35,493 nt of DNA, from the NCBI GenBank assembly GCA_903946745.1, contig CAJAWW010000162.1, forward strand, positions 1-35,493. Direction: 5' to 3'. Below, in pieces: positions 15,530 through 28,871 of this stretch; the stretch's first letter is position 1; the number at the start of each line of letters is the position of its first letter. The translations under genes and the position numbers were made by a program. Source of the DNA: an uncultured beta proteobacterium. GTDB lineage: Bacteria > Pseudomonadota > Gammaproteobacteria > Burkholderiales > Rhodocyclaceae. The notes beneath the pieces were generated by a model that was given only the letters and a program-made list of their open reading frames with translations, made no database searches and was not told where the DNA came from.

Positions 15530-16228
15530 ATGGATGGGTTTCTCGGCGTACTGGGGGGAATGGGACCCTTGGCGACGGCGGATTTTCTCGGCAAGCTGGT
15601 CGAGAATTCGCCGGCGCTTGTTGACCAGGATCACGTTCCGGTCATTGTCTATGGCGACTGCACCACGCCGGATCGGACGGCCAGCATCGTCGGTACCGGC
15701 CCCTCGCCGCTACCGAAGCTGCTGGCCGGCATCACGCTCCTCAATCAGGCGGGCGTCAAGGCGATCTGCATTCCCTGCAATAGTGCCCATTGCTGGTATG
15801 ACGAACTGAGCGCTGCATCATCCGTACCGGTGTTTCACATCGTCAAAGCCAGTGCGGAGCAGGTGCGTAAAAAGCAACCCGATGCCAAAACCGTTGGTGT
15901 TCTGTCGACATTCGGCACGCATCAGATGGGCATTTACCGCGATACGCTCGCGGCGATGGGCTATGCGGTGGTTGCACCCTCGGAGGACGAGTTTCATACC
16001 CTGGTTTCGCCGGCCATCGCCATGATCAAGGCCAATCGGCTGGACGAGGCGGAGGATGTATTCCGCGAAGCGGCGAGCCGGCTGCGCGCACGCGGCGCCG
16101 AGATCATCATTCTGGGCTGCACCGAAATTCCCATCGGCATGCGCCGGCAGTACCGCGAAACCCCCGCATTGTTCGTTGACTCCAACGACGCGCTTGCCTT
16201 GGCTGTCATTGACTTTTTCGCCGCTTGA
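15530..16228 (+). CDS. Aspartate/glutamate racemase family protein
   Basis: A 232-residue cofactor-independent amino-acid racemase. The family begins with GVLGGMGPLATADFL as here, and two catalytic cysteines sit in IPCNSAHCWY (C83) and LGCTEIP (C197), the usual two-base pair. It interconverts the L and D forms of an acidic amino acid, most likely aspartate; the exact substrate cannot be read off. ATG at 15530 is 9 bases after GGGGAG and is preferred over the adjacent TTG at 15527. The stop is only 4 bases before the GTG start of the SulP transporter, so the two are probably co-transcribed. The 76-base gap to the isocitrate dehydrogenase gene contains no convincing terminator. Confidence 0.92.
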   Translation: MDGFLGVLGGMGPLATADFLGKLVENSPALVDQDHVPVIVYGDCTTPDRTASIVGTGPSPLPKLLAGITLLNQAGVKAICIPCNSAHCWYDELSAASSVPVFHIVKASAEQVRKKQPDAKTVGVLSTFGTHQMGIYRDTLAAMGYAVVAPSEDEFHTLVSPAIAMIKANRLDEAEDVFREAASRLRARGAEIIILGCTEIPIGMRRQYRETPALFVDSNDALALAVIDFFAA

Positions 16229-24835: not shown

Positions 24836-27514
24836 ATGCCATCCTTGGACGTTATTGTTGAAACATCACGTTACCTCAGTCGTTTACTAACTGCGCGGCC
24901 TGCGCTGGGCACGGAGGTAGAGGCTGCACTGACGCAGCCGGTGACCGCAGCCGAACTGGGTGACTGGCTGGCCGCACAGCCGGTGGATGAAGCCAACCTG
25001 AAATCGGTGCTACGGCAGCTCAAGCAGCGTGCCTATGCTCGCATTGCGGCGCGCGATCTGGCCGGGCTGGCACCCTTATCCGAGGTGACCGAATGCATGA
25101 CGCTGATCGCCGAACTGGCGGTTGCCAAGACGCTGGAAATCACGCGCGACGCGCTGGTCGCACGCTACGGCGTGCCACGCGATGCGGCGGGGTGTGAGCA
25201 AGATTTGATTGTGGTGGGCATGGGCAAGCTCGGTGGGCGTGAGCTGAATGTCTCGTCGGATATCGATCTGATCTTTGTCTATCCGGAGGACGGCGACACC
25301 GATGGGGCGCACGGCGGACTTAAATCAATTTCAAATTTTGAGTTTTTTACCCGTGTTGGCCGGGGTCTGATTAACGCCATTGCCGACGTCACCGAAGATG
25401 GCCAGGTTTTTCGTGTCGATATGCGTTTGCGGCCGAATGGCGAATCCGGTCCGCTGGTGTGTTCGTTTGACATGCTGGAGAACTACTTTGTCACCCAGGG
25501 GCGCGAATGGGAGCGTTATGCCTGGATCAAGGCGCGGCCGTTGACGGGCGTGCGTCACGACGCGCTGGAGGCCATTCGCCGACCTTTTGTATTCCGCAAG
25601 TATCTGGATTTTGGCACCGTCAATGCCATGCGCGAACTACATGTGCAGATTCGGCGCGAGGTGGCCAAGAAGGATATGGCCAATAACGTCAAGCTCGGCC
25701 CCGGCGGCATCCGCGAGATTGAATTCATTGCGCAGGTATTCCAGCTGATTCGCGGCGGACGCGATACGCCGTTGCAGATCAAGCCGACGCTGAAGGTGCT
25801 GGCTTTACTGGCGGAACGCGGGATTCTGAATGCGGACGCTGCGCTGGAGCTGGCGGCCGCGTATGATTTTTTGCGTCGCGTCGAACATCGCTTGCAATAT
25901 CTCGACGACGCGCAGACACACCAGTTGCCAGCGTCATCTGAGGATCAGACATTGATCGCGCGGGGGATGGGTTTTGCCAGTTACGAGGCGCTACTGGTCG
26001 AACTGGACGATCACCGCGGTGCCGTCTCACGGCATTTCGAGCAGGTATTTGCCGACCCAAATCGCGAAGAACATCGACTTGCAGCGGTGTGGGCGGGGGC
26101 GTGCGACGAGGATCAGGATGATTGCTTCGAGCGTCTTGGCTATCGCAATCCGCCCGCCGCAGCCCAGCGTCTGGCGGCCTTGCGTGCGGGGCCGCGCTAC
26201 CAGCAGATGGGTGAGGACATTCGCCGCCGTTTCGATGTGCTGGTGCCGCGGCTGATCGAAGCCGCCGCCGCGATGCCCAGCCCCGACGATACCCTGACGC
26301 GAGTCATTGATCTGCTCGAATCGATCTCGCGTCGCGCAGCCTATCTGGCGCTGTTGCAGCAGTATCCGCAGGCCTTGCAAAAAGTGGTCGAACTGGTCGG
26401 CAGTTCGAGCTGGGCGGCGACCTATCTGCAGCGCCATCCAATTTTGATGGACGAACTGCTCGATCCGCGTCTGCTCGAATTCATCCCGAACTGGGCAAGC
26501 GTGCGCGAGCAACTCGGCACGCACCTAGACGAACTGGAGCCGGACACCGAGCGGCAAATGGATGCCCTGCGTGAAATGCATCACGCCCAGGCTTTCCGTC
26601 TGCTGGCGCAGGATATTGGCGGGCGTCTGTCGGTGGAAAAACTCGCCGATCATCTTTCTGAACTGGCCGACATCATGCTCGATGCGGCGATTCGCGGGGC
26701 GTGGAAAAAGCTGCTCATGCGTCATCTTGAGGTGCCCAAATTCGCCGTCATCAGCTATGGCAAGCTCGGCGGCAAGGAGCTTGGCTACGCCTCCGATCTG
26801 GATCTGGTGTTTCTATACGATGACCCGGCACCAGAAGCGGGCGAGAACTATGGCCGGCTGGGCATGCGGCTCAACACCTGGCTGTCGGCGCAAACAGCGG
26901 CCGGGCAGTTGTTTGAAACCGATTTGCGTTTGCGACCCAATGGGGATTCCGGGTTGGTGGTCAGTTCCATTGAGGCATTTCGAAAATACCAAATGGAATC
27001 GGCGTGGGTGTGGGAACATCAGGCGCTCACCCGCGCGCGCTTTTCTGCCGGCGACCCGGCCGTGGGCGTAGCCTTTGAGCGTATCCGTTGCGAAGTGCTG
27101 TGCCAGTCCCGCGATCTGGGCAAACTGCGCGAGGAAATTCTCGCCATGCGTAGCCGCATGCGCGATGCCCACGGCACCCGGGAGGATGAAATCGAATACA
27201 TATTCGATCTCAAGCACGACGCCGGTGGTTTGGTGGATGTCGAGTTCATCGTGCAGTATCTGGTGCTGGGTTTTTCACACCGGCACGCCGAGCTCACAGG
27301 CAATCTGGGCAACATCGCGCTGCTGAAAATCGCCGCCGGCCTCGGCTTGATTCCGCCCGCGCTGGCCGAAGAAGTACGCAACGCCTACCGCGATTACCGC
27401 CGCCTGCAACACGGGTTGCGCCTGAACGACGCCCGCCCGCGCGTCGAACCCTCCACCGTGGCTGCGCGCGTCAAGGCGGTGCGGGCGCTGTGGGGGATTG
27501 TGTTTGAAACGTAG
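24836..27514 (+). CDS. glnE: Bifunctional glutamine synthetase adenylyltransferase/adenylyl-removing enzyme
   Basis: GlnE switches glutamine synthetase off by adenylylation and on by phosphorolytic deadenylylation, under control of the PII protein. The 892 residues show two nucleotidyltransferase domains. The N-terminal adenylyl-removing domain has GMGKLGGRELNVSSDIDL (near 126) and the C-terminal adenylyl-transferase domain has YGKLGGKELGYASDLDLVF (near 638). Each carries the DxD metal motif and is followed by a RLRPNGDSG-type segment. The protein is about 50 residues shorter than the E. coli enzyme (946), the shortfall lying in the N terminus. ATG at 24836 gives the shortest plausible start; no strong ribosome-binding site is visible. 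It ends just before a large hairpin with a T-run. Confidence 0.97.
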   Translation: MPSLDVIVETSRYLSRLLTARPALGTEVEAALTQPVTAAELGDWLAAQPVDEANLKSVLRQLKQRAYARIAARDLAGLAPLSEVTECMTLIAELAVAKTLEITRDALVARYGVPRDAAGCEQDLIVVGMGKLGGRELNVSSDIDLIFVYPEDGDTDGAHGGLKSISNFEFFTRVGRGLINAIADVTEDGQVFRVDMRLRPNGESGPLVCSFDMLENYFVTQGREWERYAWIKARPLTGVRHDALEAIRRPFVFRKYLDFGTVNAMRELHVQIRREVAKKDMANNVKLGPGGIREIEFIAQVFQLIRGGRDTPLQIKPTLKVLALLAERGILNADAALELAAAYDFLRRVEHRLQYLDDAQTHQLPASSEDQTLIARGMGFASYEALLVELDDHRGAVSRHFEQVFADPNREEHRLAAVWAGACDEDQDDCFERLGYRNPPAAAQRLAALRAGPRYQQMGEDIRRRFDVLVPRLIEAAAAMPSPDDTLTRVIDLLESISRRAAYLALLQQYPQALQKVVELVGSSSWAATYLQRHPILMDELLDPRLLEFIPNWASVREQLGTHLDELEPDTERQMDALREMHHAQAFRLLAQDIGGRLSVEKLADHLSELADIMLDAAIRGAWKKLLMRHLEVPKFAVISYGKLGGKELGYASDLDLVFLYDDPAPEAGENYGRLGMRLNTWLSAQTAAGQLFETDLRLRPNGDSGLVVSSIEAFRKYQMESAWVWEHQALTRARFSAGDPAVGVAFERIRCEVLCQSRDLGKLREEILAMRSRMRDAHGTREDEIEYIFDLKHDAGGLVDVEFIVQYLVLGFSHRHAELTGNLGNIALLKIAAGLGLIPPALAEEVRNAYRDYRRLQHGLRLNDARPRVEPSTVAARVKAVRALWGIVFET

Positions 27515-27523
27515 AATCGGTTT

Positions 27524-27617
27524 ACCACGGGGAACACGGGGGGCACGGGGAAGTCAAAACCGTAGTTCTCCAGATTTTCCCCGTGTGCCCCGTGTCCCCC
27601 GTGGTCAATTTTTTTTT
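27524..27617 (+). terminator. Large inverted repeat built of CACGGGGNN units, followed by a T-run
   Basis: The left arm (27524-27552) and right arm (27577-27605) are 29 bases each and match at 26 of 29 positions when one is reverse-complemented; the loop is 24 bases. Each arm holds three 9-base units of the form CACGGGGNN. Nine T residues follow (27609-27617). On the plus strand this has the form of an oversized intrinsic terminator for glnE. The unit structure also resembles dispersed intergenic repeats seen in environmental proteobacteria. The argJ ATG is only 15 bases past the T-run. Confidence 0.75.
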
Positions 27618-27632
27618 GAATGAAAGTCCGTC

Positions 27633-28871
27633 ATGCCCGTCAATTACGCCACCCCCGCCCCTGAAGCCTTGTTCCCCGTCGCGGGCGTTCGCCTTGGCAC
27701 TGCTGAAGCGGGTATTCGCAAAGCCAATCGCCGCGATTTGACGCTGGTTGAGCTGACCCCCGGCAGTCGTGCCGCCGGGGTGTTTACGCAGAATCGATTC
27801 TGTGCGGCACCGGTGACGGTGTGTCGCGAGCACCTGGCGTCGGATGGCAGCTTGCGGGCGCTAATTATCAATACCGGCATTGCCAATGCGGCGACCGGTG
27901 AGCAGGGCATGCAGGCGGCGCGCGATACCTGCGCGGCCGTGGCGAACGTGCTGGGCTGCAAGGCCAGCGAAGTGTTGCCATTTTCCACCGGCGTGATTCT
28001 TGAGCATCTGCCGACGGCGCGTCTGATCGCCGGTTTGCCGGCGGCGCAGGCTGATCTGCATGCCGACCACTGGCACGCCGCAGCGCATGCCATCATGACC
28101 ACCGACACCGTGGCCAAGGCTGCGTCGCGCCAGCTTCAGCTGAACGGCAAGACCGTCACCCTCACTGGCATCAGCAAGGGCGCGGGCATGATCCGCCCCA
28201 ACATGGCGACCATGCTCGGTTTTGTCGCCACCGACGCCGGGATCGCCCCCGACTTGCTGCAAGGGCTGGCGAAAGAGGCGGCCGACGTGTCGTTCAACTG
28301 CATCACGGTCGACGGGGATACTTCGACTAATGATTCGTTTGTTGTCATCGCCACCGGCCAGAGCGGTATCAACATCGCCGATGCCGCCGCACCGGAATGG
28401 GCGGCGGTGCGCGGTGCCTTGATTGCCGTGGCGCAGGAACTGGCGCAGGCCATTGTGCGCGACGGTGAAGGTGCGACCAAGTTCATTACCGTAAAAGTCG
28501 ACGCTGGGGAGACGGTAGCCGAATGCCGCAAAGTAGCGTATGCCATTGGTCACTCACCGCTGGTAAAAACTGCGTTCTTTGCCTCTGACCCCAATCTCGG
28601 GCGTATTCTTGCGGCCATTGGCTATGCCGGCATTGATGATCTCGATGCCGCTGCGGTGCGCGTCTGGCTGGGTAGCGGCGAAGAAGAAATACTGGTTTCC
28701 GAACACGGTGGACGTGCCGCCAGCTATCGTGAGGAAGACGGCTCGCGCATCATGAAAAGCGCCGAGATCACGGTGCACGTTGATCTTGGTCGGGGTGCCC
28801 AGAGTGCAACCGTCTGGACGTGTGATTTTTCTTACGATTACGTCAAGATCAACGCAGATTACCGGTCTTGA
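27633..28871 (+). CDS. argJ: Glutamate N-acetyltransferase/amino-acid acetyltransferase (ArgJ)
   Basis: Transfers acetyl from N-acetylornithine to glutamate, and in bifunctional forms also acetylates glutamate with acetyl-CoA, in the cyclic arginine pathway. The 412 residues match the family length. The precursor self-cleaves before the nucleophile threonine, T193, in [10 protein letters not shown], preceded by GISKGAGMI (the oxyanion region). GDTSTND-type and [10 protein letters not shown] segments follow, and the C terminus has the typical NADYRS ending. Mono- or bifunctionality cannot be decided by eye. The start ATG has a weak GAAAG site. Only 15 bases separate it from the T-run of the upstream hairpin, so there is no room for a promoter after the hairpin. 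Confidence 0.97.

Follow-up and report, generated by a model that had tools for sequence, protein, structure and literature searches.

The interval between glnE and argJ in this Rhodocyclaceae genome is occupied by a long hairpin of tandem repeats, and it raises the question of whether such a structure is a terminator belonging to this junction or a copy of something that moves. We approached it from the window (the whole stretch of 35,493 nt that was analyzed), from the rest of the host genome, and from genomes of near and distant lineages.

A tandem-unit hairpin between glnE and argJ

The original prediction described a giant hairpin with three 9-base units in each arm, lying between glnE and argJ and followed by nine T. 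The hairpin is real: both neighbors match their profiles (NF008292 and NF003802), the nine T are present at 27609-27617, and the 29-base arms lie inside a 32-nt inverted repeat (27521-27552 and 27577-27608) that is 88% complementary across a gap of 24 nt. The interval contains the following features.

24836-27514, plus strand: glnE (NF008292)
27503-27508, plus strand: flanking direct repeat TTTGAA, left copy, at the end of the glnE reading frame
27521-27552, plus strand: left arm, TTTAC and three CACGGGGNN units (inverted-repeat search, unit match)
27553-27576: loop, unrelated to the 75-nt core found in 23 of 50 host loops
27577-27608, minus strand: right arm, three minus-strand CACGGGGNN units, then plus-strand GTCAA (inverted-repeat search)
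27609-27617, plus strand: T-run of nine T, mirror counterpart of the left A-run in most copies
27615-27620, plus strand: flanking direct repeat TTTGAA, right copy
27633-28871, plus strand: argJ (NF003802)

Within each arm, three CACGGGG cores recur every 9 nt (27526-27550 on the left; 27579-27603, minus strand, on the right). The three-unit pattern has two matches in the window, both exact, and none in 100 shuffles. Folded as RNA, the hairpin reaches -60.5 kcal/mol (z -6.8; none of 200 shuffles folds equally well), and folded as DNA it has a z of -5.5. With a stable stem followed by a T-run it has the structure of an intrinsic terminator, and on that structural ground the terminator role suggested in the original prediction is possible. 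Rfam gathering scores were reached in the window by two tRNAs only, and by no RNA family at the hairpin. The window holds one other inverted repeat, at 15678-15728 (23 nt, 87% complementary, 5-nt loop), which is unrelated to the CACGGGG family.

The hairpin is one of about 60 copies in the host

A single occurrence in the genome, with the same design absent from relatives, would have argued against a dispersed, MITE-like intergenic element, as the hairpin had been proposed to be. A search of the host genome (2,825,442 bases in 332 contigs, 98.6% complete) instead bears the proposal out, with 59+57 exact three-unit CACGGGGNN arms against none for the reversed-pattern control, and 70+66 against 7+13 when up to three mismatches are allowed. 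The 48 host stretches fetched around matches (259,940 bases including the window, about 224 kb besides it) contain 60 arm clusters, 56 of which are paired hairpins. Among 40 relatives from the same family or order, an exact CACGGGG arm occurs in one genome, as one single arm, a count that covers the CACGGGG unit only; PF13366 genes, discussed below, are found in seven of the 40, and the sole relative with a CACGGGG arm has no PF13366 match. The CACGGGG hairpins are thus a burst in one lineage among those sampled.

Gene context was classed for 49 host copies with a simple in-house gene-calling script, by which one copy falls ‘inside’ a gene, probably through a gene-calling error. Thirty-eight copies lie between tandem (co-directional) genes, 10 between convergent genes and one between divergent genes, compared with 127, 21 and 22 of the 170 pairs of neighboring genes in those stretches, so that copies between co-directional genes occur at the background proportion.

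The glnE-argJ junction itself varies among relatives. In ten of 30 fetched loci (L161-L190), host included, glnE adjoins argJ. Six relatives (L163, L164, L168, L169, L180, L181) have an empty junction, with 10-32 nt between the two matches and no hairpin, and three have inverted repeats built of other units: CACGAAG/CACAAAG/CACCAAG in L162, CACCAAG in L165, and a shorter, more degenerate repeat of CACGGTG type in L170. It therefore seems that different variants struck this junction on more than one occasion. When the host flanks are joined at TTTGAA, glnE ends in ...VFE-stop, matching L169; the present glnE stop is a TAG at 27512-27514 inside the element, between the two TTTGAA repeats, and adds one residue.

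Copies share mirrored ends and carry marks of copying

Alignment of 56 copies, proposed earlier as a means of defining the borders, gives the following outline. Outward of the arms lies a mirrored TTRAC, followed about 11-14 nt out by an A-run, or by a T-run on the opposite side. About 20 bases of mirrored outer sequence are common to the copies, and little consensus is left beyond about 24 nt. The left A-run and right T-run are thus the mirrored ends of the element in most copies.

Between the arms, loop length is 14-77 nt in the 34 host copies with 3+3 exact units and 14-84 nt across the 50 host loops measured. As expected of MITEs, the short copies consist of inverted ends without coding capacity. 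A 75-nt loop core, or shortened versions of it, is present in either orientation in 23 of the 50 loops; the other 27, the window's among them, are unrelated. We considered whether the core derives from the GxxExxY gene described below, and the comparison with that element's interior gave no clear relation and no support (score 23; shuffles reach 22 at 95% and 28 at maximum).

The few differences between the window's two arms had been read as a sign of recent origin or conversion, a reading that does not survive comparison across the family. In the 34 host copies with 3+3 exact units, the spacer dinucleotides of a copy's two arms match no better than those of arms drawn from separate copies. 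Pairing of the outer 14 bases falls short of that in permuted pairs (237 of 476, compared with 269, sd 10), and pairing adjoining the T-run is likewise below expectation. Arm covariation, which would point to selection on an RNA stem, was absent from the 34 host copies and from eight copies of a second genome, G041. What is kept is the repeated core and not a perfect palindrome.

Two kinds of copy bear the marks of DNA that was copied and inserted. In three copies (L042 3111, L055 222, L077 1258) the same 39-nt insert interrupts one arm's outer unit, which marks them as a sub-family that was copied. Elsewhere, two CACGGGG copies are nested in the loops of hairpins built of CACAGAG and CACGGCG units (L067 2990-3250, L076 100-280).

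A predicted nuclease gene lies between the same arms

In one host copy, on contig C24 (L038), the 3+3 CACGGGGNN arms are separated by 385 nt and enclose an intact GxxExxY gene. The gene matches TIGR04256 at 132.1 bits (cut-off 35) and PF13366 at 131.9 (cut-off 22), and the element is neighbored by gspE/pilB-like and gspF/pilC-like genes. The second and only other PF13366 gene of the host (contig C87) has more degenerate 9-mer arms, leaving a single CACGGGG-armed GxxExxY gene for about 60 host hairpins.

Several lines of evidence bear on what the protein does. PF13366 is matched by all 51 GxxExxY proteins compared, one of which also matches Cas4, weakly. Residues E33, E83, K85 and Y101 are invariant in the 51, and D73 and Q97 are present in 90% or more. 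A sequence search with the protein found no solved structure at E 0.001. The AlphaFold2 model (pLDDT 95) has as its best structural match in the PDB SSO0001, a Cas4 (Z 9.3, rmsd 3.8 over 100 aligned residues); from rank 2 down no match exceeds Z 7.1, and BglII, Hjc and alkaline exonucleases are among these lower matches. Foldseek likewise places SSO0001 first (E 1.1e-3), and a defense-system library returned one weak Cas4 match (E 0.00093), to the second host gene on C87. With D...ExK and QxxxY residues on a PD-(D/E)XK fold, the GxxExxY protein is predicted to be a PD-(D/E)XK nuclease of Cas4/RecB type.

In open-licence literature we found no description of the function of the GxxExxY family, and GxxExxY-hairpin elements are absent from its titles and abstract openings; this kind of element is apparently undescribed. 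A link to phages gave no match among 50,697 phage records, and plasmid records gave eight.

Tandem-unit arms accompany GxxExxY genes in many lineages

The arrangement on C24 is widespread. In a first sample, inverted arms of tandem ~9-mers (score at least 26) flank 63 of 78 GxxExxY loci, compared with 7 of 287 displaced sites (moved 700-900 nt) and 5% of mismatched flanks; earlier flank limits gave 61 of 78 at the same score. This sample comprised 80 loci kept of 169 and the two host genes, minus four too near a contig end, and its query held arm-encoded residues (GEHGGHGE, one of six patterns), a possible bias toward armed loci. In a second sample not selected by arms, 31 of 34 loci are armed, compared with 3 of 130 displaced sites and 23% of mismatched flanks, the latter figure being high because related loci share arms. 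The second sample drew on the 30 best-scoring loci, all of one family (f51), and six from the family of the host itself, where two partial G020 matches were excluded; 34 loci were usable. Arms are absent at this threshold from 15 of 78 and 3 of 34 genes.

The armed loci are found in records of Pseudomonadota, Planctomycetota, Bacteroidota, Acidobacteriota, Verrucomicrobiota and Calditrichota. Among archaea, five Methanocorpusculum GxxExxY genes (L141, L148, L150, L152, L158) fall below the arm threshold, and a sixth, L140, scored 36. The best lag is 9 in 34 of the 63 armed loci of the first sample; for the 31 of the second it is 9 in 14 and 10 in 12. The units themselves differ by lineage and include CACGGGGNN, CACGAAGNN, CACRGATTT, CGCAACGNN, AAATCTTGT and CACGTATCT, among others.

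The unit type of the gene's arms is mirrored in the rest of the genome. In 21 genomes, counted with the arms of the GxxExxY genes themselves included, two-unit CACGGGG arms are found only in the four that have a CACGGGG-armed GxxExxY gene (254, 158, 12 and 111 matches) and are absent from the other 17. CACRGATTT arms occur in their three genomes (13, 6 and 4 matches), with one match each in two others, and AAATCTTGT arms occur in their two genomes (4 and 21 matches), with none in 19. For these three unit types, the genomes with dispersed copies are essentially those with matching GxxExxY arms. In two of the CACGGGG cases, a Planctomycetota and a Thiobacillus genome, the armed gene is broken while dispersed copies are present.

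L081, 3001-3369: broken GxxExxY gene, in-frame stop
L085, 989-1388: broken GxxExxY gene, frameshift

Arm types also follow the protein tree, on which they were labeled by eye. Each of three groups of proteins, those with AAATCTTGT (12), CACRGATTT (6) and CGCAACG (6) arms, lies wholly to one side of a single branch. The CACGGGG type can be judged only from L038 and L080, which are sisters; L078, L085, L100, L137, L193, L194 and L282 look misframed or very long-branched, and L081 dropped out of the tree.

Host copies tend to be flanked by a 4-bp repeat

One distance from the arm recurs at neighboring genes: 16 of 63 gene ends have their stop codon exactly 20 nt away, and 13 of 41 gene starts have their start codon at that same distance. 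Comparing bases on the two sides, the four at -24 to -21 and those at +20 to +23 agree best among 288 offset pairs (z 5.0), and neighboring columns are not raised. An exact 4-bp repeat at -24/+20 is present in 8 of 56 host copies, compared with a permuted mean of 1.7 and a maximum of 5 in 400. When six copies that are nested, insert-bearing or beside other repeats are dropped (L042, L055, L067, two in L076 and the first in L077), the count is 8 of 50, whereas 5000 permutations average 1.8 and never exceed 7. Four copies repeat ATGA, two TCAT, one TTAA and one TTTT; most of these words are stop/start or stop/stop overlaps, duplicated in such a way that neither neighboring gene is damaged. Permutations that keep the stop-codon and ATG classes give weaker values (p 0.02 for exact 4-mers, p 0.05 for bases), and the signal thus rests largely on such overlaps.

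In G041, a 4-mer repeat within 2 nt either way of the expected place is found in 9 of 23 copies, where 2.9 would be expected (p 0.0025); the exact offset pair itself comes 13th of 400, and its same-diagonal neighbor ranks first. Without a fixed offset, the longest direct repeat around host copies carries little signal (4.61 compared with 4.35; sd 1.04 of single values). The window copy lacks the 4-bp repeat at the standard offset (GTTT and AAGT); its own repeat, TTTGAA, is displaced from that position. As a family trait of the host copies, a flanking duplication of 4 bp, in many cases of a stop/start overlap, has statistical support. The target-site duplication expected of a MITE is accordingly present for the family and partly replicated in G041, and it is not clean at the window copy.

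In other lineages we also examined the surroundings of complete elements for target duplication; any excess there is weak or absent and does not convince. The mean longest flanking repeat is 4.25 at 60 complete GxxExxY loci (permuted 3.94, sd 0.14) and 3.96 at 27 others, no excess over a permuted 4.0; at 21 loci of TIGR02436, a second protein family to which we now turn, it is 4.38 compared with 3.93 (sd 0.23).

A sister design surrounds TIGR02436 genes

TIGR02436 genes encode the S23/IVS protein, a four-helix bundle. They have no match in the host genome, where the hairpin ORF is GxxExxY. In a sample of 30 fetched loci (L223-L252), from 98 matches in 17 of 21 genomes, inverted tandem 7-mer arms are found in 24, compared with 1 of 116 displaced sites and 5% of mismatched flanks. 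Identity within these arms is 0.65 at lag 7 and 0.61 at lag 14, compared with 0.26-0.30 at other lags. The cyanobacterial heptamer repeats (STRR) may belong to the same 7-mer design. The 23S rRNA intervening sequences with S23/TIGR02436 resemble the host element in having hairpin arms around a small ORF, and the host element differs from them in its ~9-mers, its nuclease protein and its intergenic rather than rRNA position. In the Coxiella IVS, tandem heptamers are reported to precede the S23 ORF (PMC4990558).

Discussion

The copies are dispersed, their design is conserved and nuclease genes sit within the arms; from these sequence comparisons we infer that transposition would be driven by the nuclease. 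In our judgment the hairpins are likely MITE-like copies of a small mobile element in whose mobility the GxxExxY nuclease probably takes part. In a short copy, an outer stretch of about 20 nt (A-run and TTRAC) would lead into three CACGGGGNN units and a 14-77 nt loop, with the mirror image of the outer stretch and units on the other side, and in the apparent complete form the GxxExxY gene would stand in place of the short loop. The nuclease may bind the 9-mer units and cut target DNA with a 4-nt stagger, mobilizing both complete and short copies. Fill-in of the staggered cut after insertion would leave the 4-bp flanking duplication, and insertions would survive where the duplicated bases preserve both neighboring reading frames. 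That the nuclease mobilizes the copies would be the simplest reading of its place within the arms, the matching of units and the 4-bp duplication taken together.

The main rival is that the nuclease genes are passengers: host replication, repair or template switching would have spread the hairpins, and small genes would have settled in their harmless loops. Two unrelated protein families, GxxExxY and TIGR02436, do occupy the same design, the nested hairpins of L067 and L076 imply that loops accept insertions, and many short copies have unrelated loops. Yet each protein family has its own unit length (~9 nt for GxxExxY, 7 nt for TIGR02436), protein clades go with unit types, the genomes with dispersed CACGGGG copies are, among 21, exactly those with a CACGGGG-armed GxxExxY gene, and a preferred 4-bp duplication suggests an enzyme. 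We consider this explanation unlikely.

A homing process, in which GxxExxY cuts hairpins already in place, with its gene then copied in via the arms while short hairpins spread otherwise, would fit the replacement of the loop by a nuclease gene with the arms retained (L038), as well as a fold of the PD-(D/E)XK class. It leaves the spread of the short copies unexplained, though, and arm types that go with protein clades and one CACGGGG-armed gene per about 60 host hairpins also speak against it, making it improbable in our view. Finally, intrinsic terminators of the ordinary bidirectional kind, made numerous through convergent selection or gene conversion, would account for the strong stem with its left A-run and right T-run, for the few divergent copies (1 of 49, compared with 22 of 170) and for the somewhat more frequent convergent ones (10 of 49, compared with 21 of 170), but we regard this as very improbable because the loop core in 23 of 50 loops, the shared 39-nt insert and the nested copies show DNA copying, and because 38 of 49 copies have co-directional genes on both sides and some occur at ATGA overlaps, the variable positions of the arms do not agree, and nuclease genes are found inside the same design in several phyla.

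The proposed element invites comparison with known systems. REP/REPIN sequences and their RAYT enzymes offer a parallel: intergenic palindromes that are short, dispersed and present in tens to hundreds per genome, with one linked DNA-processing enzyme. The earlier suggestion that the hairpin is REP-like with a RAYT was nonetheless not borne out: the Y1_Tnp family (PF01797) has no match in the host genome (98.6% complete), and a REP/RAYT origin was accordingly rejected. Unlike REPs, the host arms are tandem 9-mers whose edge is TTRAC (56 copies) rather than a GTAG or CGTC tag, and the linked enzyme is a predicted PD-(D/E)XK nuclease. Bacterial MITEs are closer, with short non-coding copies, inverted ends, a short flanking duplication and a longer gene-bearing copy. 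They differ in that the longer host copy encodes a Cas4/RecB-like nuclease and not a known transposase, and that its ends are mirrored tandem repeats. The candidate parent on C24 carries the GxxExxY nuclease, in a genome where our transposase search covered Y1 only. To our knowledge, none of the transposases behind known MITEs belongs to the GxxExxY nuclease class.

The TAACTGA heptamers of Beggiatoaceae are also dispersed intergenic tandem short repeats in distant lineages, for which carriage by mobile elements has been considered (PMC4679880). Unlike the host hairpins, they are 7-mers mostly in one direction and upstream of start codons, and the text of that report names no S23 or four-helix protein (0 occurrences), while the passages considered link no nuclease to them (PMC4679880).

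These observations could reach beyond the host. We tentatively propose, as a possibility short of a conclusion, a broad and undescribed superfamily of minimal mobile elements spanning several phyla, in which a tandem-unit hairpin encloses one small gene (GxxExxY with ~9-nt units, S23 with 7-nt units) and each protein recognizes its own units and spreads copies with and without a gene. If true, this would explain many tandem-unit palindromes, intergenic heptamer repeats and the origin of the 23S rRNA IVS. A class of dispersed hairpins is now tied to a specific and widespread nuclease family, and what spreads tandem-unit palindromes and heptamer repeats, along with the origin of the 23S rRNA IVS, becomes testable. 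If the nuclease does mobilize these copies, it would count as a mobility enzyme, only about 120-130 residues long and different in class from the Y1 enzymes of REP elements.
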